Shown: positions 223 to 55,071 of the stretch, one piece after another
Layout: the number at the start of each line of letters is the position of its first letter
Numbering within the stretch: position 1 is the first letter of the stretch
NCBI GenBank assembly: GCA_016187925.1
Contig: JACPIS010000024.1
Coordinates: forward strand, 1-64,000
Source: Opitutia bacterium
GTDB lineage: Bacteria > Verrucomicrobiota > Verrucomicrobiia > Opitutales > Opitutaceae
Length of the DNA stretch: 64,000 nt
Direction: 5' to 3'
Position numbers and translations under genes: made by a program
The notes under the pieces: generated by a model
Seen by the model: the letters and a program-made list of their open reading frames with translations, nothing else
What the model was told of the DNA's origin: nothing
The model's database searches: none

Positions 223-247
223 GGAATTTCACGCGCCCTTGCGCGTC
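223..247 (+). promoter_or_regulatory. candidate ECF sigma promoter before the AhpD-like gene
   Basis: GGAAT (223-227), 16 bases, then CGTC (244-247), followed by AAACC. The boxes and the spacing are identical to those before the ECF sigma gene (1117-1141) and before arsS (6383-6407). Here the leader to the ATG at 358 would be about 100 bases, unlike the other two sites, so this copy is the weakest of the three. Confidence 0.4.
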
Positions 248-357
248 AAACCCTCCCCTTCACTCCACATGCGCATCTTACTCCGTCCAGCGGGCGCTCC
301 GCGTCGATCCAATGACCGCGCGGCGCTCCGAGTTCTCTGAACCGCACTCGTGCCGCC

Positions 358-930
358 ATGATCTTGCCGGGGGAAATCGTATCTGAATCTGTGCGCCCGG
401 CTGGCGGAACGACGCTTACCGAGCGCCTGGCGGTGAGTGTGGAACTCGAGGCCTTGCGCCGGGAGCTCGGTTTTGTCCCGAATTTCTTCTCCGTGCTCTC
501 GCACTCGCCGCTGGCTTTTCTCGCGGTCCGCGAGATGCAGGCGCTGATGGACCGCCATGCGGTGCTGTCCCCCGCGGAGCGGCACCTCGTAATGCTCGCG
601 ATCAGCAGCGAGCACGCCTGTGAGTATTGCGCCAGGTACCATTACCTCATGTCGGCCTCGGTGGGAGGCGCGACGGAGGCAATCTGTGCGGTGCGCGACC
701 GCCTCGTTCCCACCGAGCCGCGGATTTGCGCGCTGGTTGAATTTTCCCGGGAAATCGTTCGTACAGGAGGAAAGGTGGACGAACATCGCCGCGCCGAGTT
801 CGTCGCCGCGGGCGGCTCACTGGCTGACGCTCTCGACATTCTCACGCTCGTCGCTTTCACGACGCTCACGAACTACACGAATCACATCGCGCGCACGCCG
901 GTTGATCCGGCATTCCGGGCAATGCGCTGA
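358..930 (+). CDS. AhpD-like / carboxymuconolactone decarboxylase family protein
   Basis: 190 residues. The AhpD/CMD signature E-H-A-C-E-Y-C-A-R-Y-H lies near residues 82-92: an acidic residue, a CxxC redox pair and a histidine, as in alkylhydroperoxidase-like proteins. In AhpD the two cysteines and the histidine carry out thiol peroxidase chemistry; the substrate of this paralogue is unknown. ATG 358 is the only plausible start, because the frame is closed by a stop at 313 and no other start codon lies between. The gene precedes an ECF sigma gene and carries a similar candidate promoter, so it may belong to the same oxidative or arsenic stress response (inference). Confidence 0.8.
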   Translation: MILPGEIVSESVRPAGGTTLTERLAVSVELEALRRELGFVPNFFSVLSHSPLAFLAVREMQALMDRHAVLSPAERHLVMLAISSEHACEYCARYHYLMSASVGGATEAICAVRDRLVPTEPRICALVEFSREIVRTGGKVDEHRRAEFVAAGGSLADALDILTLVAFTTLTNYTNHIARTPVDPAFRAMR

Positions 931-1031
931 TCCAGCACCGGAGCAAACGGTGGGCGCCGGTGGAGCGCTGGTGACCGCCCTGTTGTGGCGCGGAATAAAC
1001 CCAGCTTCGCCCCGTCCTAATTGAACAACCC

Positions 1032-1103
1032 ATGATTATCGCAACCGTCATACTCGCCGCACTCACCCTGCTGGTGGCCACCGAAGATTCCGGGGTGGGC
1101 TGA
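1032..1103 (+). CDS. possible 23-residue hydrophobic small protein
   Basis: ATG at 1032 opens a 23-codon frame ending in TGA at 1101-1103. The product begins MIIATVILAALTLLVA, a single membrane-spanning stretch followed by a short polar tail. It lies in the gap between the AhpD-like gene and the sigma factor gene. No clear ribosome binding site is seen and a short hydrophobic frame can arise by chance, so this is a candidate only. Confidence 0.25.
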   Translation: MIIATVILAALTLLVATEDSGVG

Positions 1104-1116
1104 CGCCACTTTGTCG

Positions 1117-1141
1117 GGAATAATTTACGCGCCGGCCCGTC
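1117..1141 (+). promoter_or_regulatory. candidate ECF autoregulatory promoter of the sigma/anti-sigma/arsM operon
   Basis: GGAATAA begins at 1117 and CGTC occupies 1138-1141, with 16 bases between GGAAT and CGTC. This matches the GGAAC/T plus CGTC architecture common to ECF sigma factors. The ATG of the sigma gene (1152) lies 10 bases after CGTC. Exactly the same boxes, spacing and distance to ATG are found before arsS (6383-6407). If transcription starts about 7 bases past the -10 box, the mRNA would be almost leaderless. Confidence 0.6.
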
Positions 1142-1151
1142 AAAACCGTCA

Positions 1152-1703
1152 ATGGACGCCTCTTTTTTCCAGCAATTGGTCGATACTTGGTATGATCCGC
1201 TCTACCGGTTCGCCCTCAGCCTGTCCCGCAACGGCGACGAGGCGCTGGATCTGACGCAGCAGACTTTTGCCCGCTGGGCGGAGAAGGGGCACTCCCTGCG
1301 CGATGCGAATAAGGCGAAGTCGTGGCTCTTCACGGTGCTCTACCGCGAGTTCCTCACCAACCGCCGGTCGCAACTCCGCGAGAGCCCGCCCGCCGACGAG
1401 GAGTTCTTCGACACCCTCGCGGCCGAGGATACTCCGCCGGTATGCTCCATCGACGGCCAGCAGGCGCTCGCCGCCCTGCGGGAGATCGATGAAGTCTTTC
1501 GCGCTCCGCTCGTCCTTTTCTATCTCGAAAACCACGCCTACCGGGAAATCGCCGAGATTCTCGACGTGCCGATCGGCACCGTCATGTCTCGCATCGCGCG
1601 GGGCAAGGAACAACTCCGCCGCAGGCTCCACAGCCACGAGGCCAGACAGCCGGCGAAAGTCGTTCCGATGCCGTCCTCCACGAAAGGAACGCACCATGGA
1701 TAA
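1152..1703 (+). CDS. ECF-type RNA polymerase sigma factor
   Basis: 183 residues, the usual size of an extracytoplasmic-function sigma factor. Region 2 is visible at about residues 10-75 (YRFALSLSRNGDEALDLTQQ, then WLFTVLYREFLTNRR). Region 4 lies at about 120-165 (LVLFYLENHAYREIAEIL, then IGTVMSRIARGKEQLRRRL), a helix-turn-helix for the -35 box. No C-terminal extension is present, so it is not of the ECF41 type despite the neighbouring CMD-family gene. It overlaps the anti-sigma gene by 8 bases, and that gene ends 15 bases before arsM, so the three are probably co-transcribed. The ECF-like promoter in front suggests positive autoregulation. Confidence 0.92.
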   Translation: MDASFFQQLVDTWYDPLYRFALSLSRNGDEALDLTQQTFARWAEKGHSLRDANKAKSWLFTVLYREFLTNRRSQLRESPPADEEFFDTLAAEDTPPVCSIDGQQALAALREIDEVFRAPLVLFYLENHAYREIAEILDVPIGTVMSRIARGKEQLRRRLHSHEARQPAKVVPMPSSTKGTHHG

Positions 1704-2451
1704 CAAACACGCCCAAATCATTCTCAGTGTCTACCGTCCCCACGGACAGGACGCGAAAGACCCTTTTTTCGCCGAGGCTCTGCGCCAGGCGGATCGCGAT
1801 CCGTCGGTGAACACCTGGTTCAAGCACCAGCAACGCTTCGACGCCGACTTCGCCGCCACCCTCGGCTCGATCGCCGCCCCCTCCGACGCGAAGGCGATGA
1901 TCAAGGCCACGATGGGCGCCTCCGCCGGCCGGCGCCGCACCTGGTGGCCGCTCGCTCTCGCCGCCAGTGTGGCGCTCCTCCTCGGCGCCACCTTGGCCGT
2001 CCAGCAACTCCGCCGCCCGTCCGGCCTGCCGTTGCCGGAGAATGCGACGCTCGAGCAGCTCGCCACCAACCTGGCCGAACACCACGCGACGATCGGGCTC
2101 ATGTCGGGCGACATGGCGCGCATCCAGCAATGGCTCATCGACCGCCGCGGTCCGCAACCCGACGTCCTGCCTCAGGGTCTCGCCGGGATGAAGATTTTCG
2201 GTTGCGAGACGTGGGATACCACGCGCGGCAAGGTTTCGCTGCTCTGCTTCATGGGCGACGGCGCGAAGACGGTGCACCTCTACGTGTTCGAGAACGCCGA
2301 CGCATTTCCGAATCTTCCGAACAGTGACCGCCCCCGCTTCGAGAAACAAGGAAAGTGGTCGCTCGCGCTATGGCAGCACAATGGCCGCGCCTACGTCCTC
2401 GGTGCGCCGAGCGACAGCGGCTACTCCGTTGAACTTCTGTCCAAATCCTGA
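1696..2451 (+). CDS. membrane-anchored anti-sigma factor (putative)
   Basis: 251 residues. The ATG at 1696 lies inside the last codons of the sigma gene. An N-terminal cytoplasmic part (1-82) is followed by one transmembrane helix (about 84-103, WWPLALAASVALLLGATLAV) and a periplasmic C-terminal domain of about 145 residues with two cysteines. This topology and the overlap with the ECF gene identify it as the cognate anti-sigma factor. No zinc-binding HxxxCxxC (ZAS) motif is visible, so the sigma-binding part is of an unrecognised type. The periplasmic domain is the likely signal receiver; the signal is unknown. Confidence 0.7.
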   Translation: MDNKHAQIILSVYRPHGQDAKDPFFAEALRQADRDPSVNTWFKHQQRFDADFAATLGSIAAPSDAKAMIKATMGASAGRRRTWWPLALAASVALLLGATLAVQQLRRPSGLPLPENATLEQLATNLAEHHATIGLMSGDMARIQQWLIDRRGPQPDVLPQGLAGMKIFGCETWDTTRGKVSLLCFMGDGAKTVHLYVFENADAFPNLPNSDRPRFEKQGKWSLALWQHNGRAYVLGAPSDSGYSVELLSKS

Positions 2452-2466
2452 GCCAACCTTCCTCGT

Positions 2467-3627
2467 ATGCAGGTAGAATCCGCCGTCCGCGAGCGCTACA
2501 GTGGCGCCGCCCGTCAAGCCGAGGCCGCCCTGTGCTGCCCCGTCAACTACGACCCGCAATACCTCAAGGTCATCCCGGCCGAGGTCATCGAGCGCGACTA
2601 CGGTTGCGGCGATCCGTCGCGCTGGGTGCAGGAGGGCGACACCGTCCTCGATCTCGGCTCGGGCACGGGGAAGATTTGTTTCATCGCCGCGCAGGTGGTC
2701 GGGCCCAGGGGCCGCGTCATCGGGGTGGATATGACCGACGACATGCTCGGGGTCGCCCGCCGCAATACGCCCGTCGTCGCCGGGCGCATCGGCTACGCCA
2801 ACGTCGAATTCCGCAAGGGCCGCATCCAGGACCTCGCGCTCGACCTGGAGCGGCTTGATGCCGAACTCCGCCTCGCCCCCGCGGCCGACGCCAACGGCTG
2901 GCTCGCCGCGGAGACGGCCGCCGCCCGCTTGCGCCGTGAGCACCCGCTCGTGCCCGACGGGAGCATCGACGTCGTCGTGTCCAATTGCGTGCTCAACCTC
3001 GTCGAGCCGCACCTCAAGGCGCAGATGTTCGCCGAGCTGTTCCGCGTGCTGCGCCCCGGTGGACGCGCCGTCATCTCCGACATCGTGAGCGACGAGGCCG
3101 TGCCCGACGCCCTGCAACGCGACCCGGAACTGTGGAGCGGCTGCATCTCGGGCGCGTTCACCGAGCGCGAGTTTCTCGGCGCCTTCGAGCAGGCCGGCTT
3201 CCACGGCATCGAACTCGTCAAATACGACTCCGCGCCGTGGCGCACCGTCCAAGGAATCGAGTTCCGCTCCGTCACGGTGCGCGCCTACAAGGGCAAGCAG
3301 GGCGCCTGCCGCGAACGCCTCCAGGCCGTCATCTACAAGGGGCCGGGCAAGGAGTTCCTCGACGACGACGGCCACCGTTTCCGGCGCGGAGTGCGCGAGG
3401 CCGTCTGCGAAAAAACTTTCGAACTCATCCGAGCCGGCCACTACGGCCCGGGTTTCGAGCTGATCGAGCCGCGCGTCGCCGTGCCGGCGGGCACGGCCAA
3501 ATCCTACGCCTCGTGCGGTCAGCGCGTGCGTGATCCGCGCGAGACCAAGGGCCGGGATTATACCGCGACCACCGACGCCTCCGCCTGCTGCGTCCCGACC
3601 GACACCACCGCCTCCGTCGGCTGCTGA
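2467..3627 (+). CDS. arsM: arsenite methyltransferase ArsM, arsenosugar-type
   Basis: 386 residues. A class I SAM methyltransferase fold with motif I VLDLGSGTGK at 60-69 and an acidic GVDMTDDM loop at 86-93. Cysteines sit where ArsM enzymes bind As(III): C23/C24 (ALCCPVNY), C174 (SNCVLNL) and C226 (SGCISGAF). The C-terminal domain (about 275-386) ends in a cysteine-rich tail with C350, C374, C375 and C386. Known ArsM enzymes methylate arsenite stepwise with SAM; in arsenosugar clusters the dimethyl product feeds ArsS. The gene follows the sigma/anti-sigma pair by 15 bases, and its stop codon overlaps the start of the PiT transporter gene by one base. Substrate assignment rests on the motifs and on the nearby arsS. 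Confidence 0.85.
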   Translation: MQVESAVRERYSGAARQAEAALCCPVNYDPQYLKVIPAEVIERDYGCGDPSRWVQEGDTVLDLGSGTGKICFIAAQVVGPRGRVIGVDMTDDMLGVARRNTPVVAGRIGYANVEFRKGRIQDLALDLERLDAELRLAPAADANGWLAAETAAARLRREHPLVPDGSIDVVVSNCVLNLVEPHLKAQMFAELFRVLRPGGRAVISDIVSDEAVPDALQRDPELWSGCISGAFTEREFLGAFEQAGFHGIELVKYDSAPWRTVQGIEFRSVTVRAYKGKQGACRERLQAVIYKGPGKEFLDDDGHRFRRGVREAVCEKTFELIRAGHYGPGFELIEPRVAVPAGTAKSYASCGQRVRDPRETKGRDYTATTDASACCVPTDTTASVGC

Positions 3628-4730
3628 TGTTCGCCGCGCTTATCATCCTCGCGACGCTGGCCGTCGGATACTTCAACGGCGCCAACGATGTCTCCAAATC
3701 GATCGCGACCCTGGTCGGCAGCGGAGTCACCCGTTACCGCACGGCGGTGCTGTGGGGCGGCGTCTGGACTTTTGTTGGAGCAGAAACAGCAGCGTGGGCG
3801 TCCCGGGGGTTGGTCGCGGCGTTCAGCGGCAAGGGGGTCCTTGCTGCCCAGGCAGCGGGTGAACCGCTGTTGCTCGCGACCGCCCTTGGGGCGCTTGGGT
3901 GGATCTGGCTCGCCACGCGCGGCGGATTGCCGGTCTCGACCACGCACGCCCTGACCGGAGCGTTGGTCGGCGCCGGCGTGGCCGCGTTCGGCTGGTCCGG
4001 GATCAATGGTGGCTTCCTGCTGGCCAAATTTGCGCTCCCCCTCGTGGTCGGCCCCGTGCTGGCCACGGCCCTCGTGTGGGTCGCCTTTCCCTTGCTCCAC
4101 CGCACCCTCGTGCGCTGGCAGGGCTACTGTGTCTGTGTGCAGAAGCCGCAGCTCGTCGCCTGTGGCGAGGGAGTGGCCTGCGTCAGCCCGGCGCCGCCGG
4201 CGCTGGTGACAGGCGCGAGCGAGGACTGCGGGCGCACCCCGGCGATCGTCGCCAATCTGACCCTCGCCGACGGGCTCCATTGGCTGTCCGCGGGCGCCAC
4301 GGCTTTCGCGCGCGGATTGAACGATGCGCCCAAGGTGCTCGGCCTCGGGATCGCCGCGGCGATGCTCCTGTCGATCCCGATTCCGGTGGCATTCACCGCC
4401 GTCGCCGCAGCCATGACCGCCGGCAGCCTGTTGCGCGGCCTCCGGGTGACGGAGACGCTGGCGCAAAAGGTCACGCGGATGGATCCGCTGGAGGGTCTGA
4501 CGGCCAACCTGGTGACGGCGGGCCTCGTGGTCTTCGCCTCGCACCTGGCTTTGCCGGTCTCCACCACCCACGTCAGCACCGGCGCGATCATCGGCCTGGG
4601 GCTGAAGCAGGACGCACGGCGCATCCAGTGGAAGACGGTGCGCGAGCTGGGGCTCGCGTGGATTCTCACCCTGCCGTTCGCCGCGCTGGTCGCCGCGCTG
4701 AGCTACTGGCTCCTGCGGCAGGCGGCCTGA
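3627..4730 (+). CDS. PiT-family inorganic phosphate (probably also arsenate) transporter
   Basis: 367 residues, mostly hydrophobic. It carries the two internally repeated PiT signatures: GYFNGANDVSKSIATLVGS at the N-terminus and ARGLNDAPKVLGLGIAAAM in the second half. Each is paired with an LPVSTTH motif (GLPVSTTHALTG and ALPVSTTHVSTG). PiT carriers take up phosphate with H+ or Na+ and do not exclude arsenate well. The start overlaps the arsM stop (TGATG), so the two are translationally coupled. In this context the carrier may bring arsenate in, or rescue phosphate uptake, as part of arsenosugar synthesis (inference). A central cysteine-rich loop (about 168-200, with VCVQKPQLVACGEGVACVS) is unusual and might sense or bind As(III). 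Confidence 0.9.
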   Translation: MFAALIILATLAVGYFNGANDVSKSIATLVGSGVTRYRTAVLWGGVWTFVGAETAAWASRGLVAAFSGKGVLAAQAAGEPLLLATALGALGWIWLATRGGLPVSTTHALTGALVGAGVAAFGWSGINGGFLLAKFALPLVVGPVLATALVWVAFPLLHRTLVRWQGYCVCVQKPQLVACGEGVACVSPAPPALVTGASEDCGRTPAIVANLTLADGLHWLSAGATAFARGLNDAPKVLGLGIAAAMLLSIPIPVAFTAVAAAMTAGSLLRGLRVTETLAQKVTRMDPLEGLTANLVTAGLVVFASHLALPVSTTHVSTGAIIGLGLKQDARRIQWKTVRELGLAWILTLPFAALVAALSYWLLRQAA

Positions 4731-5700
4731 GGCGCGCCGCCGTTCCCGGCTTCGGATCCAGCCAGGGTGAGTTGCGAAAGGCTCCGGGGGCCATGCCGAA
4801 GAGCCGCTTGAAAGCCTTGCTGAGCGAGAATTCCGACTGGTAGCCCACCAAATCGGCAATCTGCGCGACCGACAGGGATGACTCGCGCAGCAGCCCGCGC
4901 GCTTTGAGCATGCGCCAGCGCGCGAGGTAAAGCATCGGACTGGTGCCGACCAGAACCTTGAATCGCTCCGTAAAGACGGAGCGCGAGACCCCGGCCTCCC
5001 GCGACAGCTCCTCCAGAGTCCAGTCGCGGGTGATCACGGTGTGCATCAAATTCAAGGCGCGGCCGATGCTCCGGTCCTGGATGGCGGCCAGAAAACTGCG
5101 CGATTCCATCGGGTCCAGTTGGGCGACGAAGCCCAGCAGGGATTGAATCAGCAACGCCTCCGCCAAGCGGTCGACGACCGCTGCGGCGCCGGGCCGGTTG
5201 GCGGAGGATTCGGCGGCCGCCAGCTCACCGGCAGTGGCGAGCCAGCGCGCGCCGGCCGAGGCGGATCCCCTGACGTGCACGATCGGGGGCAGGGTCTCGA
5301 AAAGCGGGTGGGGGCACTGCCTGTCGTAGGCGAAGTGTCCGCACACGAGCCGGGTCGTCACCGCGCCCCCGCCGCCGAATTCCGGGGTCGCTTCGGGGTG
5401 TTCCTTGTCAGCGGGCTGACCCAGCAACCGGCGGGCCGGCACGGGAGTGGCATCGGGCGCATGCAGCAGGGCGTGGGGGCTTCCGTGCGGAAAAACCACC
5501 ACGTCGCCCATTTCGAGCAAGGTGCACGTCTGCGTGCCGGCCGGGCCGTGGCGCAGCCAACATTGCCCGGCGGCCACAATGTGGAAGTTGGCGAATTCCC
5601 CGCCTTGGATATCCAGCCCCCAGGGCTCCCGGAAATCGGCGCGAAAGTAGACCGTGCCGTGCAGATGTTGCGCGCGGAGGACTTCGGACAGGATATCCAT
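4666..5700 (-). CDS. AraC-family regulator with N-terminal cupin domain
   Basis: 344 residues. Residues 1-190 form a cupin_6-like ligand-binding domain (ILSEVLRAQHLHGTVYFRADF, then GDVVVFPHGSPH). Two helix-turn-helix repeats follow at about 215-310 (WTLEELSREAGVSRSVFTERF and LSVAQIADLVGYQSEFSLSKAF), the AraC signature. Its 3' end overlaps the convergent PiT gene by 65 bases. It lies 18 bases downstream of the YHS gene on the same strand and is probably co-transcribed with it. It may control the YHS gene or the arsenosugar genes; no operator was identified. Confidence 0.9.
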   Translation of the reverse strand: MDILSEVLRAQHLHGTVYFRADFREPWGLDIQGGEFANFHIVAAGQCWLRHGPAGTQTCTLLEMGDVVVFPHGSPHALLHAPDATPVPARRLLGQPADKEHPEATPEFGGGGAVTTRLVCGHFAYDRQCPHPLFETLPPIVHVRGSASAGARWLATAGELAAAESSANRPGAAAVVDRLAEALLIQSLLGFVAQLDPMESRSFLAAIQDRSIGRALNLMHTVITRDWTLEELSREAGVSRSVFTERFKVLVGTSPMLYLARWRMLKARGLLRESSLSVAQIADLVGYQSEFSLSKAFKRLFGMAPGAFRNSPWLDPKPGTAARLRPPAAGASSSARRPARRTAG

Positions 5701-5718
5701 GGCAAGGAGTGGGCTGGT

Positions 5719-6195
5719 CTATCGTTGCGCCGGCGCCCAGTTGGCTTCGGCCCGGGAGAGGAACTCGCGCTCGTTCTCGTTCCACGGCACGATGGTGTTG
5801 AACCGTTTGCCCTCATAGAGGTCGTCGAAGAACAGGTAGAGTGCGCCGTCGCGCAGTTTGAAGGTGCGCGGGTTGGCTTTGACGGTCGTCTTGCCGTTGG
5901 CCACGGCGAAGGCGCAGAAGCCTCCGAACTTCGGCAGATAACGGGCGGGGGCGGCCTTGAAGGCGTCCAGATGCCCCTGTGTCGCGAAGTGGAAGATCGC
6001 TCCTTCGTGGCGGGTGGAGAAACGCAGATCGCCCACGGTCGCCTCATGCGCGGTGAAGTAGGCGACGACATCGTAGCCGCCGAGAAACACGCCGTGGTCG
6101 TCCACGTTCAAGGTGGCGGCCTTGCCCGGGGTGACCAGGGATAGGAGTAGGGTGGAGAAGATGGCCCAAGGGAACATTTTGACCGGAAGGTGCAT
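5719..6195 (-). CDS. secreted YHS-domain protein
   Basis: 158 residues with a signal peptide (about 1-26, hydrophobic FPWAIFSTLLLSLVTPGKAA). A YHS-type core follows: VFLGGYDVVAYFT, then GAIFHFATQGHLDAFKAAPARYLPKFGGFCAFAVANG. YHS domains are small, often metal-associated modules found in exported proteins and heavy-metal enzymes. The only cysteine in the core is in GGFCAFA. The gene is divergent from arsS across 222 bases and leads the small operon with the AraC gene. A role in handling a metal or arsenic species in the periplasm is possible but not shown. Confidence 0.8.
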   Translation of the reverse strand: MHLPVKMFPWAIFSTLLLSLVTPGKAATLNVDDHGVFLGGYDVVAYFTAHEATVGDLRFSTRHEGAIFHFATQGHLDAFKAAPARYLPKFGGFCAFAVANGKTTVKANPRTFKLRDGALYLFFDDLYEGKRFNTIVPWNENEREFLSRAEANWAPAQR

Positions 6196-6382
6196 GGTAG
6201 ACTGTGTAGAAATGCCAGTGAATCAAGGAGCGGCAGACGTTTCTGGCCCCGCCTGCCGCCTGTCCCGCATTGGCGGGGCATGTCTGGATCCTAGCACCGG
6301 CGCCCCGGCAGGAACATCGGCGCGGCGCCGGATTCCATGTCCGATCCGCCGCACTTTCTGCCCGCCCAAGGCAAGAGTGGCA

Positions 6383-6407
6383 GGAATAAATCAGCGGATC
6401 GTCCGTC
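6383..6407 (+). promoter_or_regulatory. candidate ECF promoter of the arsS operon
   Basis: GGAATAA begins at 6383 and CGTC lies at 6404-6407, with 16 bases between GGAAT and CGTC. The arsS ATG (6418) is 10 bases beyond. This is the same geometry as the promoter of the ECF sigma gene (1117-1141), base for base in box sequence, spacer length and distance to the start codon. Upstream at 6245-6278 is a GC-rich hairpin (GCCCCGCC paired with GGCGGGGC) that could separate the divergent transcription units. Confidence 0.6.
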
Positions 6408-6417
6408 AGAATGACAG

Positions 6418-7401
6418 ATGCGCACCTCTTTTGATGCCCACCTCCACAAGCACGGCACGCCGCTGCACCGCGCCGCGCCTCGCGTCCTTCAGATCAACGT
6501 CGGCAAGCTCTGCAACCTGACCTGCGTCCACTGCCATGTGAACGCCGGCCCCGGGCGCAAGGAGGTCGTCACCCGGGACACCTTGGATCGGATCCTCGCC
6601 TGGCAGGAGCGGGCCCGGCTGCCGATCGTCGACCTGACCGGCGGCGCACCGGAGATGATTCCCGACTTCCGCTACCTCGTGCAGCGCCTGCGCGCGATGC
6701 CGTGGGTCGAGAAGATCATCGACCGCTGCAATCTCACGATCCTGCTCGAGCCGGGTTACGAGGGCGTGGCGGAGTTTCTCGCCGCGCACCGCATCGAGAT
6801 CGTCGCGTCGATGCCGTGCTATTCGCCGGAAAACGTGAACGCCCAGCGCGGCGACGGCGTGTTCGACGCCAGCATCACGGCGCTCCAGCGGCTGAACTCG
6901 CTTGGCTACGGCATCGACCCCGTATTGCCGCTGCATCTGGTCTTCAACCCCAACGGCGCGCGGCTGCCCGGGGCGCAGGCCGGGCTCGAGGCCGACTACA
7001 AGCGCGAGTTGCGCACCCACTTCGGCATCGAGTTCAACTCCCTCTACACCATCACCAACCTGCCGGTCTCCCGCTTCGCCGCCTGGCTCCGGCACAACGG
7101 CAAATACGAGGAGTATCTGAACCTGCTCATCGAGTCCTTCAACCCGGCGACCGTCGCCGGCCTGATGTGCCGCGACACGATCAACGTGAGCTGGCAGGGC
7201 GAAGTCTTCGACTGCGACTTCAACCAGATGCTGAAACTGCCGCTGGGCGGCCACGCCGCGCGCCACCTTTGGGATCTGGCCCCGTCCGCGCTCGAGCGCG
7301 CGCCCGTCGCCACCGGGCCGCACTGCTTCGGCTGCACGGCCGGCGCCGGGTCGAGCTGCGGCGGCGCCATCGAGCATCCCGCGGAGTCTGCACTGGCATG
7401 A
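6418..7401 (+). CDS. arsS: arsenosugar biosynthesis radical SAM protein ArsS
   Basis: 327 residues. The radical SAM CxxxCxxC cluster is C32-x3-C36-x2-C39 in QINVGKLCNLTCVHCHVNAG, a very characteristic start for the ArsS family (radical SAM plus DUF3641, TIGR04167). The C-terminal half is cysteine-rich (MCRDTINVSWQGEVFDCDF; CFGCTAGAGSSCGG), as expected for auxiliary cluster binding. In characterised systems ArsS moves a 5'-deoxyadenosyl group onto dimethylarsenite, forming the C-As bond of the arsenosugar precursor. It is the first gene of an operon: its TGA overlaps the ATG of the DUF547 gene by 4 bases. ATG 6418 is chosen because it is in frame and fits the promoter spacing. Confidence 0.9.
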   Translation: MRTSFDAHLHKHGTPLHRAAPRVLQINVGKLCNLTCVHCHVNAGPGRKEVVTRDTLDRILAWQERARLPIVDLTGGAPEMIPDFRYLVQRLRAMPWVEKIIDRCNLTILLEPGYEGVAEFLAAHRIEIVASMPCYSPENVNAQRGDGVFDASITALQRLNSLGYGIDPVLPLHLVFNPNGARLPGAQAGLEADYKRELRTHFGIEFNSLYTITNLPVSRFAAWLRHNGKYEEYLNLLIESFNPATVAGLMCRDTINVSWQGEVFDCDFNQMLKLPLGGHAARHLWDLAPSALERAPVATGPHCFGCTAGAGSSCGGAIEHPAESALA

Positions 7402-8225
7402 CCTCGCGGCCGCTCCGTTTTCTTCGCGCCGGCTTCGCGCTCGCGGCGACCTTGCTCGCTCTCGGCACGACCGAGGCGTCCGCGACCACAATCCGAGTGC
7501 CGGCCGGGATCGACTCCGCCGGCTGGGACCGTCTGCTGGCCAAATATGTCGACGCCCGGGGCCTCGTCGCCTATGGCGCTTGGAAGGCGAACACCGCCGA
7601 CGTCCAGCGACTCGACGACTTCATCGCGGTTCATGCCCGCTCGGACGGGGCGGAGGCGCAGGGAGACGAGGCCGTCGCGACGCTGATCAATGCCTACAAC
7701 GCCTTCACGATCCGCTGGATTCTCCAGCACTATCCCACCGAGAGCATCCGTGAACTCGACGGCTCGTGGAACAAGGCGCGTTGGAACATCAGCGGCCGGA
7801 CGGTCTCACTCGACGAGATCGAACACCAAAACCTGCGCCCGCTCTACGGCTGGAAGGTGCACGCCATGATCGTCTGCGCGGCGCGCAGCTGCCCGCCCTT
7901 GCAGGCGCGCGCCTACACCAAGGAAAATCTCGCAACACTGACCGCCGAAGCCTACCAGGCCTGGCTCGCCCGCGAGGACCTCAACCAGTTCGAGCCCGCG
8001 GTGCGGATCGTGCGCGTTTCCCCCATTTTCAAATGGTTCAAGTCGGATTTCGCGGAGCGCGGTTCGCTGGACATCGTCCTTGAGCGCTTCGGTCCCGAGC
8101 GATTCCGCAAGTTTCTCGTCTCGCGTTGTTACGCCGTCGAGTATCGCGACTACGACTGGGGTTTGAACGATCAGGGTGATCGTGGCCGCAACTACCGTCC
8201 CGGCATCTTGGGAAGACTCTTCTAG
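7398..8225 (+). CDS. DUF547 protein of the arsenosugar operon, exported
   Basis: 275 residues. A signal peptide (about 1-28, FALAATLLALGTTEASA) precedes a DUF547 domain recognisable by LINAYNAFTIRWILQHYP and KVHAMIVCAARSCPPL, which holds the conserved Cys-Ala-Ala-x-Ser-Cys-Pro core. DUF547 resembles cysteine-protease or transglutaminase-like folds but has no settled function. The start codon overlaps the arsS stop (ATGA) and the next gene starts 7 bases after its end, so it is firmly part of the operon. Such genes often accompany arsS in bacterial genomes; a hydrolytic step on a nucleoside-like intermediate is speculation. Confidence 0.85.
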   Translation: MTSRPLRFLRAGFALAATLLALGTTEASATTIRVPAGIDSAGWDRLLAKYVDARGLVAYGAWKANTADVQRLDDFIAVHARSDGAEAQGDEAVATLINAYNAFTIRWILQHYPTESIRELDGSWNKARWNISGRTVSLDEIEHQNLRPLYGWKVHAMIVCAARSCPPLQARAYTKENLATLTAEAYQAWLAREDLNQFEPAVRIVRVSPIFKWFKSDFAERGSLDIVLERFGPERFRKFLVSRCYAVEYRDYDWGLNDQGDRGRNYRPGILGRLF

Positions 8226-8232
8226 TCGCAGC

Positions 8233-8847
8233 ATGAACGCTCTGGTGATGGCCTTCTTCAAGGCGCCGCGCCCCGGTACGGTGAAAACCCGCCTTGGGCG
8301 GGAAATCGGACACGAGCCGGCGACCGCGCTGTATCGGCGCATGGCGGAGGAGCAGCTCGCCCGCATCCCCGCCGAGATGCGCGCCGAAGTGCACTACGCG
8401 CCGCGCGGCGCGAAGCCGGACATGACGGAGTGGCTGGGCAAGCGGCACTATCGGGCCCAAGCGGGCGGCGATCTCGGCGCGCGGCTGAACCATGCGTTTC
8501 TCACGGGCTTCAGGCGCGGCTATCGGCCGGTGCTCGCGATCGGGGCGGATTGCCCGGATCTCGACGCCGCGTGCCTGCGCCGCGCCGTCCTCCTGCTGGG
8601 GAGTCACGACGTCGTGCTCGGTCCCGCCACCGATGGCGGCTATTACCTGATCGGCCTGCGGGCTCCCGCTCCCCGTCTCTTCGCCGACATCGAATGGAGC
8701 ACGTCCACCGTGCTGGCGGACACGGTGCAACGGGCGAAAGCGGGCGGCCTGAGCGTCGCGCAGCTCGAAGAGCGGCTCGACATCGACGATCTGGCGTCGC
8801 TCAAGCAACACCTCGGCACCGGTCTTCCACCTGTTGTCGCATTGTGA
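8233..8847 (+). CDS. TIGR04282-family arsenosugar biosynthesis glycosyltransferase
   Basis: 204 residues from ATG 8233. The N-terminal MAFFKAPRPGTVKTRLG is the F-x-K-x-P-x-P-G-x-V-K-T-R-L signature of the DUF2064/TIGR04282 glycosyltransferases. GADCPDLDAACLRRA and ATDGGYYLIGLR form the nucleotide-sugar and metal-binding region. The family name derives from its consistent pairing with ArsS. The most likely role is to transfer or exchange the sugar aglycone once the deoxyadenosyl-arsenic compound has lost its base. An upstream start (8176) would overlap the DUF547 gene; ATG 8233 lies 7 bases after that gene and is preferred. Confidence 0.88.
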   Translation: MNALVMAFFKAPRPGTVKTRLGREIGHEPATALYRRMAEEQLARIPAEMRAEVHYAPRGAKPDMTEWLGKRHYRAQAGGDLGARLNHAFLTGFRRGYRPVLAIGADCPDLDAACLRRAVLLLGSHDVVLGPATDGGYYLIGLRAPAPRLFADIEWSTSTVLADTVQRAKAGGLSVAQLEERLDIDDLASLKQHLGTGLPPVVAL

Positions 8848-8848
8848 C

Positions 8849-9250
8849 ATGAGGCTGGCGGCCTATTTCGCGGGGCTGGATCGGGCGCGCACGCTTCTGT
8901 GGGCCGCCTTTCTCTGGTATCTCACCCAAATGGGGCGGCATCCGTCGCTGCCGCTCCGCGGCTGGATCAACGCTGCGGGCATCGCTGCCGCCGTCGGCGC
9001 CGTGTTGCTGGCCAATACCTGGTCGGACGCCGGGGTGCGTCCACGGCTCGGCGCGTGGCAGGGGGCGCGTTTTTTCATGATCCCGTTCTGTGTTTCGAGC
9101 TACTCGACCGCCCTGCGCGACGTGGAGCTCGTCCTGATCTTCCCCGCCAATCTGGCCGACAACGCCGCCGGGCTCGGGGTGATCGCGCTGGTTTTTGCCG
9201 GGGCTCACGCGTTTCGCCGTCTGGCGGATCTCGGCGCACGAGGAAAATAG
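8849..9250 (+). CDS. small membrane protein at the end of the arsS operon
   Basis: 133 residues from ATG 8849, which follows the glycosyltransferase TGA by one base. About three hydrophobic segments are visible: residues near 10-25, 40-58 (AAGIAAAVGAVLLANTW) and 95-118 (ANLADNAAGLGVIALVFAGAHAF). No family is recognised. A TTG at 8834 would add five residues, but the ATG is the better start. Tight spacing makes it a member of the arsenosugar operon; export or membrane anchoring of a late intermediate is only a guess. Confidence 0.7.
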   Translation: MRLAAYFAGLDRARTLLWAAFLWYLTQMGRHPSLPLRGWINAAGIAAAVGAVLLANTWSDAGVRPRLGAWQGARFFMIPFCVSSYSTALRDVELVLIFPANLADNAAGLGVIALVFAGAHAFRRLADLGARGK

Positions 9251-9292
9251 GCGCGACTCGGAGGCCAGGATCGGTGTGATGCCGGGACACAC

Positions 9293-10372
9293 ATGCGCCA
9301 ACACGACTTTTTCTCAGTTGCCGGTGCGCGAGCCGGCGGAGGCAAAGCCGCCCGCCGGCTCGGCTGGTTCGCCGCCACCTGCCTGCTGGCGACCGGGGCG
9401 GCAGCAAAGCCCCTCGTGCCGCCCGAGGTGGCCAAGCGCGACACCTTCACTCCGCTGGTGCAGCTGGCACCGTTCGTCGTGCACGGGCAGCAACTCGCGG
9501 TCTCGATCCACGCCCGCTCGGCGCGCGACCGGCGCTATGCGGAAGATTTCGCCGAGGAGGTCTTGAAGGTCGTCTACGAAAGCGTGACCGAATCCCCCGG
9601 AAAGGGCTTGGTGATCATCGGCAAGAAGGGCGAACCGCACCCGATTTTCCTGTTTCGGAAATTTCTCAGCCTGGCGGAGGCCGGGAAGCTGGATCCCGTA
9701 ATCGCGGCGCGCGGCCCCGAGCTGTTCGCGACGCTGAACCACTGGCAGCACCAGGCCGAGGAGGGCCACGCGGCCGGGGCAAAGCCGGACGGTCCGGTGG
9801 ACATGGAATTCGAGCAGATCGTCACGGCCCTGCCGCTGCCGCTCGAGGGAGTGGGGGCGGAACTCTACCAGCTGGCGTGGGCCGAGAATTTCGACGACGC
9901 CAGGGTGGAGGCAAGGTTGCGGGCGCTGCGCCCCGCCGATCTCGGGCACAAGCTGTTCACACGCTTCGACTGGGTTTTCTATCTGCCGCCGAAAGGGGCG
10001 TTCGACCGGGTGCTCGACGGGCTCATCGCCGATGGCCTCAAGGAGGACGACTCCGGTCTGGTCGCGCGCATGGCGGTGAAAGCCGCGCTGTTGGTGGTGA
10101 AGCCGAAGATCAGGCAGGCGATCGAGTCGCTGCGCCGCGGCATGATGCTCGCGACGGTCGCGCAGGCGCGCACGCCGCTCGATGACGCGGGTGGCTCGGC
10201 GCTGATGCAGGCCTATATTGAAGTCACGATGCCTTGGGAGAAGGAGGGCGACCTCTCCGACCACGAGCGCGCCGTCCGGGCCGTGCGCAAGACGATGCAA
10301 CAATTGCAGGGAAAACCGCCGGGAGGCGCCGGCGTCGCGGAAGCGGAAACGCCGCCGGCTGCAGCCCGCTGA
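9293..10372 (+). CDS. uncharacterised exported protein
   Basis: 359 residues. The N-terminus has a short basic stretch and a hydrophobic core (LGWFAATCLLATGAAA) ending in an Ala-x-Ala-like cleavage site, so export is likely. No domain is recognised. The body is rich in charged helices, with repeated phrases such as LVVKPKIRQAIESLRRGMML and a low-complexity tail rich in Gly, Ala and Pro. It starts 42 bases after the membrane protein gene and could be the last gene of the arsS operon or a separate unit. It reads like a lineage-specific Opitutaceae protein. Confidence 0.6.
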   Translation: MRQHDFFSVAGARAGGGKAARRLGWFAATCLLATGAAAKPLVPPEVAKRDTFTPLVQLAPFVVHGQQLAVSIHARSARDRRYAEDFAEEVLKVVYESVTESPGKGLVIIGKKGEPHPIFLFRKFLSLAEAGKLDPVIAARGPELFATLNHWQHQAEEGHAAGAKPDGPVDMEFEQIVTALPLPLEGVGAELYQLAWAENFDDARVEARLRALRPADLGHKLFTRFDWVFYLPPKGAFDRVLDGLIADGLKEDDSGLVARMAVKAALLVVKPKIRQAIESLRRGMMLATVAQARTPLDDAGGSALMQAYIEVTMPWEKEGDLSDHERAVRAVRKTMQQLQGKPPGGAGVAEAETPPAAAR

Positions 10373-10643
10373 AAACGAGGCGCAGCAGCGTAGTCCCGGA
10401 CCCCGCGCCCGGAATTCGGGCGCTTGCACGAGCCGGCGAACCGGACAAAACCAAGCCCGACTAGCCGATTCGCCCGGAGTGGGTGGTCGGTGCGGTGTGG
10501 CGAGCGCTATGAGATAAAGGCCCCGGAGGCGTATTTCTGCAGACTGCGGAATGCCCGCACCCCGCCGGACCATGAGACAAAGGGACAGACGGGATGCCGG
10601 GCTGAACGTGTGCTGGCATTGCGCCCCCTTTGCAAAGGCCGCC

Positions 10644-11252
10644 TCACATGCCGCTGCGGAAGGTCTTATGGTCGATCACGCTGCTGGCACGGACGCCCTG
10701 CAGCGCCCGGCCGTATTCAGCGAGCACCCGCAACGCGTACTGCAGGCGCTGCCGGATCGTGGCGTCTTCCTTGGTCAGTCCGTCCGTGCCGTCGGGCGCG
10801 TTCAGGTTGGCCTCCGCGTGCTGGACGATCACGTGCTCGGGAATCCACGCGAGGCGGTTGTTCTTGGTGCCGCTCATGCGCAGTTCCGCGACGGGATAAC
10901 TGCCGCCGCGGCTGGCGGACACGGTGACGATCAGGCCGGGCTTGTGACCGATCTCGTCGGCCGTGCAGTTGAGCAGGAAATTCTTCACGCCCGGCGTGGC
11001 CATGCCGCTCCACTCGGGGGTGACGACCACGAGCGCGGCGGCGGCCTTCAGCTCCCGCGAGATCGGATCCCAGATCCCGTCCGGCGCGCCGCCGCTGGCC
11101 TCGTCCCACAACGGCAGCGGATTGCCGCTCAGGCTGTAGAGAAACACCTCGGCGCCGGGGTGCTCCTTGAGCAGCGCGGCCTTGATATAATTCGCGACTT
11201 TGAGGGACTGCGCCTCGGCCCGGTGGCTGCCGCTGAGCACGAAAAATTTCAT
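10644..11252 (-). CDS. NADPH-dependent FMN reductase family protein
   Basis: 202 residues. The flavodoxin-like pattern starts [23 protein letters not shown], with phosphate loop S-G-S-H-R-x-x-S. The [21 protein letters not shown] segment corresponds to the family P-E-Y-N-x-S-x-P-G-x-L-K-N motif, here [13 protein letters not shown]. Such enzymes reduce FMN, quinones or metals with NAD(P)H. ATG at 11252 is chosen over 11270 because the family begins directly with the first beta strand. The gene is divergent from aroC with about 60 bases between the starts. A redox role next to the arsenic island is possible but unsupported. Confidence 0.88.
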
Positions 11253-11312
11253 GACCCGCACGATGCCCACCGCGGGCTTGCTTGCAAGCGGTGTTCACTT
11301 AACTGTCCGGGC

Positions 11313-12404
11313 GTGCCCAATTCCTTCGGCAAACTCTTCACGATTTCCACCTGGGGCGAGAGCCATGGCCCGACGGTGGGAGTGGTCATCGACGGCTGCC
11401 CGCCGCGCCTGCCGCTGACCGAGGCCGAGGTGCAGGCCGAGCTGGACCGCCGCCGCCCCGGGCAGAGCGACATCACCACGCCCCGCAAGGAAGAGGACAA
11501 AGTCGAGTTCCTGTCCGGCCTGTTCGACGGCCGCACGACCGGCCAGCCGCTGGCCATGCTGGTGCGCAACGCCGACGCGCGGCCCGAGGCCTACGCGGAG
11601 ATGAAGGAGAAATTCCGGCCTTCCCACGCCGATTACACTTACCAGACCAAGTACGGCGTCCGCGACCATCGCGGCGGCGGCCGTTCCTCGGCGCGCGAGA
11701 CCATCGGCCGCGTGGCCGCCGGCGCCGTGGCGAAGAAGATTCTCCAACTGGCCGGGCCGGTCGAGATCCGCGCCTTCGTCACGCACATCCACCATATCGC
11801 GGCGCCGTCCTTGGCGCATTTCCCGACGCTGGCCGAGGTGGAGGCCTCGCCGGTGCGCTGCCCGCATCCCGAGACCGCCGCGAAAATGATCGAGCGCATC
11901 AAGGAGGTCCGCGCGGCGGGCGACTCCGTGGGCGGCATGATCGAGTGCCGCGTGCGCGGCGTGCCCGCCGGGCTCGGCGAGCCGGTGTTCGACCGGCTCG
12001 AGGCCGACCTCGGCAAGGCCATGCTCTCGTTGCCCGCGACCAAGGGCTTCGAGATCGGCAGCGGCTTCACCGGCACGCTGCTCAAGGGTTCGCAGCACAA
12101 CGACGCCTTCGTTGCCCAGCGCGGCCGCGTCCACACCGCCACCAACAACTCCGGCGGCGTGCAGGGCGGCATCAGCAACGGCGAGGAGATCGTCTTCCGC
12201 GTGGCCTTCAAGCCCACCGCCACGATCATGCAGGCGCAGCAGACCGTCGACCTGCAGGGCAAAGCGACCGAGCTGACCGGCCGCGGCCGGCACGATCCGT
12301 GCGTCGTGCCGCGCGCCGTCGTGATCGTCGAGGCGATGGCCGCCCTCGTGCTGGTCGATCACTGGATGCGCCACGCCGCGCAGAACCGCACCTTCAAGTT
12401 TTGA
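11313..12404 (+). CDS. aroC: chorismate synthase
   Basis: 363 residues from a GTG start at 11313, beginning [21 protein letters not shown], the canonical N-terminus. Further signatures are [35 protein letters not shown] and [14 protein letters not shown]. The enzyme converts 5-enolpyruvylshikimate 3-phosphate to chorismate using reduced FMN. An NADPH-FMN reductase gene lies divergently next to it. The open frame extends far upstream, but that part runs antisense to the reductase and is not coding. The next gene follows after 13 bases. Confidence 0.97.
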
Positions 12405-52730: not shown

Positions 52731-54080
52731 ATGAACGAACTGCTCCACTCCGCCCTGACGCGCGCCACACGTTATCTGGAATCCCTGCCCGAGCGTCGCG
52801 TCGCGCCGACACCGGAGGCGCTTGCCGCGTTGAGCGGCTTTGAGCGTTCACTGCCGGACGATCCGACCGATCCGGCCGCGGTGCTGGCGGAGCTCGACGA
52901 ACTCGGCTCGCCTGCGACCGTCGCCTCGGCCGGCGGACGCTACTTCGGCTTTGTGGTCGGCGGCTCACTGCCGGTCACGACCGCCGCCAACTGGCTGGCG
53001 GCGGCGTGGGACCAGAACGTCGCCATGGACGTGCTTTCTCCGGTCGGCGTGCGGCTGGAGGAGGTCGCGTTGCAGTGGCTGGTCGACCTGCTCGGCCTGC
53101 CGGCGGGCGCAGGGGTGAGTTTCGTGAACGGTGCATCGCAGGCGAGTTTCACCGCGCTGGCCGCGGCGCGCCACGCGTTGCTCGCCCGGCAGGGTTGGAA
53201 CGTGGAGGCGCGCGGACTCTACGGCGCGCCGGAGCTGAAGGTCGTGGTTTCCGACGAGACGCACGTGACGGTGTTCAAGGCGCTCGCGCTGCTCGGGCTC
53301 GGCCGCGAGCGGCTGATCCGCGTGCCGGTGGACAACCAGGGTCGGATGCGCGTGGAGCAACTGCCGCCGCTCGACGGCATGACATTGGTCTGTGCGCAGG
53401 CCGGCAACGTGAACACCGGTTCGTTCGACGACTTCAAGGCGATCGCGGCCCGGACGCGGGCGGCGGGCGCTTGGCTGCACATCGACGGCGCGTTCGGCCT
53501 CTGGGCCGCGGCGGCGCCGGAGCGGCGGCAGCTCGTGGCCGGCGCCGGGCTGGCCGACTCGTGGGCGGTCGATGCGCACAAGTGGCTGAACACGCCCTAC
53601 GACGCGGCGATGGCGTTCGTGCGCGACCCGGCGATGTTGCAGGCGGCGATGGCCTACCAAGCCGCCTACCTCAAGGCCGGCGACCGGCGCGAGCCCTACC
53701 ACAACGGCCCGGAGCTCTCGCGCCGCGCGCGCGGCGTGGAGATCTGGGCGGCGTTGCGCTCGCTCGGCCGCTCGGGCGTGGCCGACCTCATCGAGCGGAC
53801 GTGCCGCCACGCGGCGCGGTTCGCCGAGGGATTGCGCGCGGCAGGATTCACCGTGCTGAACGACGTGGTGATCAACCAGGTGCTGGTCTCGTTCGGCGAC
53901 GCCGAGCGGACGAAGCGCGTGATCGCGGCGATCCAGGCCGACGGGACGCTGTGGTGCGGCGGCACGGTCTGGCAGGGACACACCGCCATGCGCATCAGCG
54001 TCTCGTCGTGGGCCACGACGACGGACGACGTCGAGCGCAGTCTGGCGGCGATCATCCGGATCGCGCGGGCGACAACCTGA
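52731..54080 (+). CDS. PLP-dependent group II amino acid decarboxylase
   Basis: 449 residues from ATG 52731. Family features are FVNGASQASFTALAAARHALL (PLP phosphate region), DETHVTVFKALALLGLG, WLHIDGAFGLWAAA (Asp for pyridine N) and the Schiff-base lysine in SWAVDAHKWLNTPYD. It decarboxylates an aromatic or acidic amino acid; the phrase order resembles bacterial aromatic-L-amino-acid/tyrosine decarboxylase-like proteins, but the substrate cannot be assigned. Some relatives of this group act as aldehyde synthases. The upstream open frame crosses two other genes and is not coding. Confidence 0.92.
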   Translation: MNELLHSALTRATRYLESLPERRVAPTPEALAALSGFERSLPDDPTDPAAVLAELDELGSPATVASAGGRYFGFVVGGSLPVTTAANWLAAAWDQNVAMDVLSPVGVRLEEVALQWLVDLLGLPAGAGVSFVNGASQASFTALAAARHALLARQGWNVEARGLYGAPELKVVVSDETHVTVFKALALLGLGRERLIRVPVDNQGRMRVEQLPPLDGMTLVCAQAGNVNTGSFDDFKAIAARTRAAGAWLHIDGAFGLWAAAAPERRQLVAGAGLADSWAVDAHKWLNTPYDAAMAFVRDPAMLQAAMAYQAAYLKAGDRREPYHNGPELSRRARGVEIWAALRSLGRSGVADLIERTCRHAARFAEGLRAAGFTVLNDVVINQVLVSFGDAERTKRVIAAIQADGTLWCGGTVWQGHTAMRISVSSWATTTDDVERSLAAIIRIARATT

Positions 54081-54092
54081 GGGCGCCGCGAC

Positions 54093-54728
54093 TCAGGCGG
54101 CGGCCGGGCCGCCGGCCGTGAGCATGTTCAGCTGCTTTTGCATCGTCTCGGTGGCCGCGGGCGACATGCCGTGGGTCACCGGGATGGAGAGCGACTCCTG
54201 CAGAAACTCCTCCAACGACACCCAGCGTCCGGCGTGGTGGATGCGCTTGGTCCAGGCGCACATCGTCACCATCTCCTCGCGGAGCCGGCGGAGTGTTTCG
54301 GTGGAATTCTTCAATTCCTCGAGCAGGCGGCGCTGCTCCAGCTCGGCCTCCTTCAAATGGGTGACATCCTCGGCGAGGCCGACGAACTGGACGACGCGGC
54401 CCGCGGCGTCGCGCACCGGCCGGCGGCGGCCGCGGATCCAGCGGACGGCGCCGTCGCCGCGCACGATGCGGTATTCGAACTCCCGCGGAGTTTCCAGCGG
54501 CTGGGACATTTCCGCGCGCACGAACGCACGATCTTCGGGAAAGACAATCTCCAGCATGGCCTCGGCGTAGGTGCGCGGGCCGGAGAGCAGGACGGCGCGG
54601 TCGAGTCCGCAAATCCGCTCGAAGGCCGGGTTTACGTAGAGCATCTTCCGCCAGTCGGCCGTGGCCAGCCACACCACTTCGTGCAGATGGTCGAAGATGT
54701 CGTGGGCCTGTTGGAGGGTGATGCTCAT
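54093..54728 (-). CDS. PAS/PAC domain protein without output domain
   Basis: 211 residues. A single PAS/PAC module at about 10-130 (IFDHLHEVVWLATADWRKMLYVNPAFERICGL, then FEYRIVRGDGAVRWIRGRRRPVRDAAGRVVQFVGLAEDVT). A coiled coil (130-160, KEAELEQRRLLEELKNSTET) and a conserved-looking tail (MCAWTKRIHHAGRWVSLEEFLQESL, then VTHGMSPAA) follow. The tail resembles the conserved segment next to the kinase in some sensor proteins, but no kinase or cyclase follows. It may interact with a kinase encoded elsewhere. Confidence 0.85.
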   Translation of the reverse strand: MSITLQQAHDIFDHLHEVVWLATADWRKMLYVNPAFERICGLDRAVLLSGPRTYAEAMLEIVFPEDRAFVRAEMSQPLETPREFEYRIVRGDGAVRWIRGRRRPVRDAAGRVVQFVGLAEDVTHLKEAELEQRRLLEELKNSTETLRRLREEMVTMCAWTKRIHHAGRWVSLEEFLQESLSIPVTHGMSPAATETMQKQLNMLTAGGPAAA

Positions 54729-55071
54729 GGGGTCGAGCGGCGACGAAAATGAGAGCCGGGACGCGCCGGGATATTCCGGGGGAAGGGGAGGGATATTGCG
54801 CCACGGGGCAGGCCGGAGGGTGACGGAAAGCAGCGGGGCGGCGGCATGGATCGGGGGTTTGATGGGGTTGATATCGGCGCAAAGCGAGAGGCTCTATCCT
54901 CGCCTTTCGGCTAGTCGGCGCAGCTAGCGCCCCCGCGGGATGGCGGCAAGGGCGGCTGGCCCAAGCATGCGGGCGCCTCGTCCAATCCTGCGGGTGATGC
55001 GGCCAGTCCGTCGGGATGAGGCGATAAAAAATCCTCGTCCCCGGGGCGTCGGGCGCTGAGAGTCGACAGGC
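54729..55071. other. gene-free interval between the divergent PAS and Mla genes
   Basis: 343 bases. No gene, tRNA or strong repeat is seen. It must hold the promoters of the PAS gene (leftward) and the mla operon (rightward). A short stem GCGAG...CTCGC near 54881-54903 is the only structure noticed. Confidence 0.4.

Follow-up and report, generated by a model that had tools for sequence, protein, structure and literature searches.

A 64,000-nucleotide (nt) stretch of an Opitutia bacterium (contig JACPIS010000024.1, positions 1 to 64,000; hereafter, the window) carries arsenosugar-type genes that are very probably switched on by an extracytoplasmic function (ECF) sigma factor encoded beside them, because they share its promoter element and because nearly every copy of this element marks such genes in several relatives. 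From the sequence, the ECF/anti-sigma pair would very probably activate both its own operon, which includes arsM and a PiT carrier, and the arsS-DUF547-glycosyltransferase operon. These two plus-strand gene runs lie within the first 10 kb of the window, and an AraC-type regulator and a YHS protein are encoded between them on the minus strand.

All three copies of GGAAT-N16-CGTC (general form) from which a sequence-only reading of the window had proposed this control are present, at 223, 1117, and 6383, and in the last two exactly 10 bases indeed separate the end of CGTC from the ATG (at 1152 and 6418, respectively); a fourth copy, at 992-1016, had been overlooked. A further match, at 52778, lies within an open frame and was rejected as a promoter. 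These five matches compare with 0.82 expected, and a count of five was reached by none of 100 shuffles. The strict form, GGAATAA-N14-CGTC, occurs five times in the whole 3,995,137-base genome (G000), three times inside the window, over a span of 5.4 kb (contig C39, at 992, 1117, and 6383), and once each at C29:3862 and C22:81426; the reversed control pattern occurs once. The C22 site lies across the stop codon of a frame that resembles aldehyde dehydrogenase (named by eye) and was taken as chance. When relaxed to GGAATA-N15-CGTC, the pattern has 16 matches in this genome against 1 for its control, six of the 16 falling in C39:992-6407 or C29:3862-5277. A weight matrix, derived from 25 sites of other genomes and then run over all window positions, placed 992 (31.4), 1117 (29.4), 6383 (27.9), and 223 (19.1) at the top, followed by 54753 on the minus strand (16.1) and then by a position scoring 7.4; the core part of this score arises by construction, because the training sites had been chosen for the same core letters.

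The same association was found in relatives. Relatives of the ECF occur in 93 of 150 genomes of the family (E 1e-15) and in 69 of 387 genomes of the phylum (E 1e-30), and ArsS over its cutoff in 17 and 21 of these genomes, respectively, the two samples overlapping; stretches of up to 19.5 kb were read around ECF and arsS genes, for part of the ECF matches. In seven genomes, selected because each combines strict sites with a family ECF at ars genes, 31 of the 34 strict sites fall within arsenosugar-type clusters (G000, 4/5; G003, 5/5; G042, 6/6; G043, 6/6; G058, 1/1; G291, 5/7; G163, 4/4). Here, "in cluster" means on the same short contig or island, and the G058 site is counted in this sense. 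G003, G042, G043, G058, G291, and G163 all have a family ECF at arsenosugar-type genes and strict sites before those genes, and the element recurs before arsS itself in G043, G042, G003, G291, and G163. The last of these, from the same phylum and another family, has four strict sites on four contigs, some of which might be neighbors in the chromosome. The genes that follow these sites are those for the ECF, which has an ArsM-like gene (35%) close by, for ArsS, for a redoxin matching that of G042 at 54%, and for a TVP38/TIGR04282-like pair. Two strict sites, L114:15946 and L169:8842, adjoin no obvious start codon.

Control loci lack the strict element. Whereas 25 strict sites are present in 12 loci with an ECF and ars genes or otherwise ars-linked (195 kb; L079, L165, and L077 have none), the count is zero over 405 kb read at 24 arsS loci whose stretch includes no close family ECF (among them L172, with a distant 27% ECF match, and the short L075 and L076, of only 3 and 5 kb) and again zero over 443 kb at the loci of 27 paralogue ECFs, of which L082 belongs to G133 and L118 to G127. 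The sequence-only reading had proposed scanning the genome and its relatives for GGAATAA-N14-CGTC and had named equal frequency before unrelated genes as the finding that would speak against it; the scan places the sites at ECF/arsenosugar-type genes, and this clustering, with the empty control loci, supports the suggestion that the local pair also drives the arsS operon. Family genomes other than G000, G003, G042, and G043 have at most four strict sites each (150 genomes). The gap length was compared as well: in G000, G003, G042, G043, and G058, gaps of 11 to 13 and 15 to 17 yielded 13 sites, none in an island, versus 23 sites for a gap of 14, 21 of them in the islands proper (C29 being counted outside). 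Binomial probabilities of the clustering were 2.5e-8 (G000), 1.6e-14 (G003), 1.9e-14 (G042), 4.3e-16 (G043), and 9e-4 (G058), for spans that were set after the sites had been seen.

An ATG opening at least 120 codons lies 8 to 12 nt downstream of 18 of 28 sites, compared with 4,412 of 275,586 positions (1.6%). ECF promoters normally start 6 to 8 nt past the -10 box. Since the ATG follows most sites at such a short distance, the mRNAs are predicted to be almost leaderless, with transcripts starting at the ATG or a few bases from it.

We propose that the ECF sigma factor, a protein of 183 amino acids (aa) with sigma70 regions 2 and 4 only (by Pfam and TIGR profile matches), would recognize GGAATAA as the -35 box and CGTC as the -10 box, with a gap of 14 bases. 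It would be held by the membrane anti-sigma factor and freed by an envelope signal; the freed factor would then transcribe the ECF-anti-sigma-arsM-PiT operon from 1117, perhaps also from 992, and the arsS-DUF547-glycosyltransferase operon from 6383. The C29 cluster, a second one of arsenosugar type in this genome, with a strict site of its own, is probably part of the same regulon. Going by family names only, the product of the pathway would be an arsenosugar.

ECF paralogues whose stretch includes neither arsM nor arsS have the same -35 sequence followed by a different -10, GGAAT-N17/18-CTC standing before 21 of 27 of them versus 100 of 15,200 random windows. Among ars-linked ECFs, 6 of 10 have an N16-CGTC promoter of their own (the window, L048, L114, L071, L169, and L179), L049, L079, and L080 have N17-CTC/TTC, and L165 has neither type. 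The paralogue type also occurs at arsenosugar-type genes: of the 25 arsS loci that have no close local family ECF, seven (L068, L069, L075, L077, L162, L163, and L167) carry GGAATA-N17/18-[CT]TC within 180 nt before arsS or before an arsM just upstream, and in L162, L163, and L167 an ATG lies 8 nt past it. This looser pattern was defined after some of the matches had been seen and has 25 matches, those seven included, in 850 kb of strand over the 25 loci; because other spacings give totals of 10 to 20 in these loci, only the placement before arsS or arsM is telling. The two related promoter types, CGTC and N17/18-CTC, go with sister sigma factors and stand before the same gene in different genomes, which makes them a natural experiment in sigma target change. 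One of the seven loci, L077, is from G133, a member of the window's genus with an anti-sigma gene and an arsM, the latter 84% identical to the window's, and no ECF in front; its arsS (76% identical) is preceded by an N18-CTC element and no strict site, and the single strict site of that genome is inside an open frame. This joint lack of the ECF and of a strict site at arsS speaks for control by the local ECF in the window. The orphan anti-sigma gene of the window's family, followed by arsM, lies at 16444-17400 of L077.

Such elements bear on who reads the promoters of the window. G000 has a second family member, a paralogue on C41 (57% identical), and this protein, or both ECFs, might read the CGTC elements, placing the arsenosugar genes in a wider ECF response. 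The GGAATAA-type -35 common to the paralogues and the seven N17/18 elements before arsS or arsM agree with this idea, which we nevertheless consider unlikely: CGTC-form clusters were found only where an ars-linked ECF exists, the 27 paralogue loci hold no strict site, and the promoter of the C41 paralogue itself (L058) is of the N17-CTC type. It is very unlikely that arsS is mainly under the RclR-like AraC regulator or another arsenic regulator, with the element a minor or inactive promoter. The AraC-type gene does sit between the two operons, yet such genes are inconstant neighbors, matched in only L078 and L114 among the relatives' loci compared, whereas the element recurs before arsS in five other genomes. 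As for a chance origin in GC-rich DNA, GGAAT-N16-CGTC is a short pattern, 86 of the 150 family genomes contain strict sites, and the out-of-cluster sites read in G127 (three), G291 (two), and G133 (one) are all within open frames; chance as the source of the shared elements is nonetheless barely credible, given the clustering in five genomes, the gap control, the empty control loci, and a density at unrelated genes that was compared and found not to be equal.

Several observations weigh against control of the arsenosugar genes by the local ECF. The strict pattern was derived from the window and then tested elsewhere, and N15 variants occur inside the G291, G163, and G133 clusters. In G127, a strict site stands 9 nt ahead of the ATG of the ECF, no window ars protein was matched in the 19.5 kb read, and the three other strict sites are all inside open frames. 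G054 and G435 have ECF and arsS close together and no strict site anywhere in the genome; in G054, as in G058, both genes belong to a single gene run, where one promoter would suffice. The own promoter of the ECF is of the N17-CTC/TTC type in G058, G003, and G054, and the existence of the C41 paralogue itself counts on this side. In G291, the ECF frame (L169 5297-5833) is split, by mutation or assembly error. A single clade of ars-linked ECFs was not seen in a quick tree (45 rows, long branches). Within the window, the ArsM-type protein scored below every named ArsM cutoff among the matches listed, including the arsenosugar ArsM profile NF038099 (128.4, below 400). Finally, the AhpD-like gene was rejected as a firm regulon member: site 223 is a weak candidate, without the AA of the strict sites, far from the ATG, and with a matrix score of 19.1.

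The anti-sigma gene overlaps the end of the ECF gene and stands beside it in the same order in relatives. The structure model of its product (predicted local distance difference test, 87.8; predicted template modeling score, 0.61) consists of helices, then a helix at residues 84-106, which is predicted to be the single membrane helix, and a beta domain at residues 166-238; the N-terminal helical part is predicted to be cytoplasmic. In profile scans no family exceeded its cutoff (DUF3379, PF11859, 23.7 versus 33.2), a Foldseek search of the model gave no match at an E value of 0.001 or better, and tblastn against plasmids gave no match; a scan of genome contigs with the ECF protein returned two distant matches only. 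The best structural matches of the beta domain are RseB (residues about 211-308) and MucB, in six entries with Z scores of 7.2 to 7.9 and root mean square deviations of 2.7 to 3.5 over 87 to 98 residues, the next match scoring 5.8; values below 8 may reflect a common arrangement only. On neighboring strands of this modeled domain lie Cys170, invariant in an alignment of 41 members, and Cys184, present in at least 90% of them. Since paralogues carry both, these cysteines alone cannot mean arsenic sensing, and the idea of arsenic-specific cysteines was rejected. A histidine-rich stretch (such as GKHGGHG) is found in many paralogue members, though not in the window protein or the members closest to it. 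A thiol or metal signal for this anti-sigma factor would be a guess.

A broader scenario, offered tentatively and rather doubtful, is that one ECF family governs arsenosugar synthesis in much of the phylum, as an envelope-stress-type regulon. An ECF/anti-sigma pair that arose by duplication and is dedicated to the pathway, with its RseB-like domain and cross-strand cysteine pair, would sense arsenical or thiol stress, and the pathway would have been taken from the ancestral paralogue through changes of the -10 box (xCTC to CGTC) and of gap length at scattered leaderless promoters.

The window pair is reminiscent of pairs of the RpoE-RseA type (sigmaE, AlgU), in which a small sigma factor with regions 2 and 4 has an adjacent single-pass membrane anti-sigma factor and its own upstream promoter. 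It differs in its putative targets, arsM/arsS-type genes, and in that the RseB-like domain, a likeness that may mean a common arrangement only, lies within the anti-sigma protein itself. RpoE2 is an ECF-type factor. According to excerpts of a review (PMC7533571), RpoE2 influences aioXSR in an arsenite oxidizer, apparently Rhizobium sp. NT-26; this, too, ties an alternative sigma factor to arsenic genes, with the difference that, in those excerpts, the genes serve arsenite-oxidation sensing, control is by growth phase, and there is no dedicated linked pair. The same excerpts name ArsR, AioSR/RpoN, and Pho as controls of arsenic genes, which are usually viewed there as ArsR targets answering cytoplasmic arsenite (PMC7533571). 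As in those systems, the genes at issue belong to arsenic metabolism and are regulated, often by a neighboring regulator; unlike in ArsR systems, the candidate here is an ECF, and no ArsR family member is among the matches listed for the ten window proteins that were profile-scanned. If our proposal is true, a membrane-held sigma factor ties the arsenosugar pathway to an envelope signal instead of cytoplasmic arsenite.

The gene content resembles the ArsM/ArsS arsenosugar pathway in having ArsS over the TIGR04167 cutoff and glycosyltransferases of the TIGR04282 and TIGR04283 types; the enzymology of ArsS is attributed to Cheng et al. 2021 in a passage of PMC12159101. The name ArsS is also borne by an unrelated Helicobacter protein. 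Differences from the known pathway are the ECF as likely regulator and the extra PiT, DUF547, TVP38, redoxin, and MerA-like genes in the clusters. Our reading predicts a defined gene set, with PiT carriers, redoxins, TVP38, a MerA-like oxidoreductase, and DUF547. Neither ECF control of arsenosugar genes nor how bacteria turn on arsenosugar synthesis was found described in the open-licence literature searched, where sigma factor and arsenosugar occurred together only in papers on other matters, as far as the excerpts retrieved go, and where no ECF control of arsenite-related genes appeared among the titles and abstract openings of the matches listed. By term counts, "arsen" is absent from the main text, as retrieved, of an ECF review (PMC8103513) and of an anti-sigma classification (PMC7406223). 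This agrees with the sequence-only reading, for which ECF control of arsenic genes was undescribed, a claim now qualified by the influence of RpoE2 on aioXSR (PMC7533571, in part). An ECF switch for arsenosugar genes would thus be a kind of control that we did not find described; its novelty is not proven, since only open-licence literature was searched.

Table 1. Genes and candidate promoter elements in the window, and the related C29 cluster
Feature	Position	Strand	Basis or remark
Weak candidate promoter, GGAATTT-N14-CGTC	223..247	+	110 nt ahead of the ATG of the AhpD-like gene; without the AA of strict sites
AhpD-like/carboxymuconolactone decarboxylase-family protein	358..930	+	PF02627, 29.7 bits (cutoff 23); TIGR01926, 66.3, below cutoff 81.8
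Strict element, GGAATAA-N14-CGTC	992..1016	+	Candidate promoter, either for the ECF operon (upstream or tandem) or for the 23-aa open reading frame (ORF); matrix rank 1
23-aa hydrophobic ORF, putative	1032..1103	+	Translation; starts 15 nt past the 992 element
Strict element, predicted promoter of the ECF-anti-sigma-arsM-PiT operon	1117..1141	+	CGTC end 10 nt before ATG; matrix rank 2
ECF sigma factor, regions 2 and 4	1152..1703	+	PF04542 and PF08281 over cutoff; TIGR02937, 56.9 (cutoff 42.9)
Membrane anti-sigma factor, predicted	1696..2451	+	ECF-adjacent in relatives too; residue conservation; structure model
ArsM-type methyltransferase	2467..3627	+	Best profile NF040538, 344.4 bits, below cutoff 500
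PHO4/PiT-family carrier	3627..4730	+	PF01384, 213.9 (cutoff 33.7)
RclR-like AraC regulator	4666..5700	-	PF12852 and PF12833 over cutoff
Strict element, predicted ECF promoter of the arsS operon	6383..6407	+	CGTC end 10 nt before ATG; matrix rank 3
ArsS radical SAM protein	6418..7401	+	TIGR04167, 423.7 (cutoff 300)
DUF547 protein	7398..8225	+	PF04784, 63 (cutoff 27); overlaps arsS end
TIGR04282-family glycosyltransferase	8233..8847	+	TIGR04282, 197.3 (cutoff 134)
Small protein, possible last gene of the arsS operon	8849..9250	+	Directly after the glycosyltransferase; relative in L114; start codon uncertain
C29 cluster of G000 (L117)	Strict site at 3862		TlpA-like, AhpD-like, TIGR04283-type glycosyltransferase, TVP38-type, and MerA-like FAD oxidoreductase genes

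In the C29 cluster, the glycosyltransferase scored 180.7 against TIGR04283, below the cutoff of 182, with a frame that matches the profile only from position 30; the TVP38-type protein was named by similarity to L115, which carries a VTT domain, and the MerA-like FAD oxidoreductase is over the NF004991 cutoff. The strict site is followed by a predicted hydrophobic protein of 51 aa whose tail is rich in cysteine (G000:C29 3896-4051).

The arsenosugar island of G043 (L114) holds, at 5902-7197, a second ECF/anti-sigma pair with its own strict site. At 8992-11908 of the same locus, a strict site stands before a gene for a histidine kinase, with DUF3179 and a small protein next in line; a two-component sensor may therefore belong to the regulon.

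Phosphate uptake genes recur beside arsM/arsS. PiT-type carriers are near them in G000, G043, and G003 (window 3627-4730, L048 6554-7657, and L080 7312-8427), and G133 has a pst set at 10749-14235 of L077, with PstC over its cutoff and PstB, PstA, and PstS under theirs; in G043, a Porin_O_P protein adjoins arsS. Elsewhere in the window, a GGAAT-N17-CTC element similar to the promoters of the paralogous ECFs lies at 54753-54777 on the minus strand; the ORF that follows it, at 54093-54728 on the same strand, was judged PAS-like by eye.

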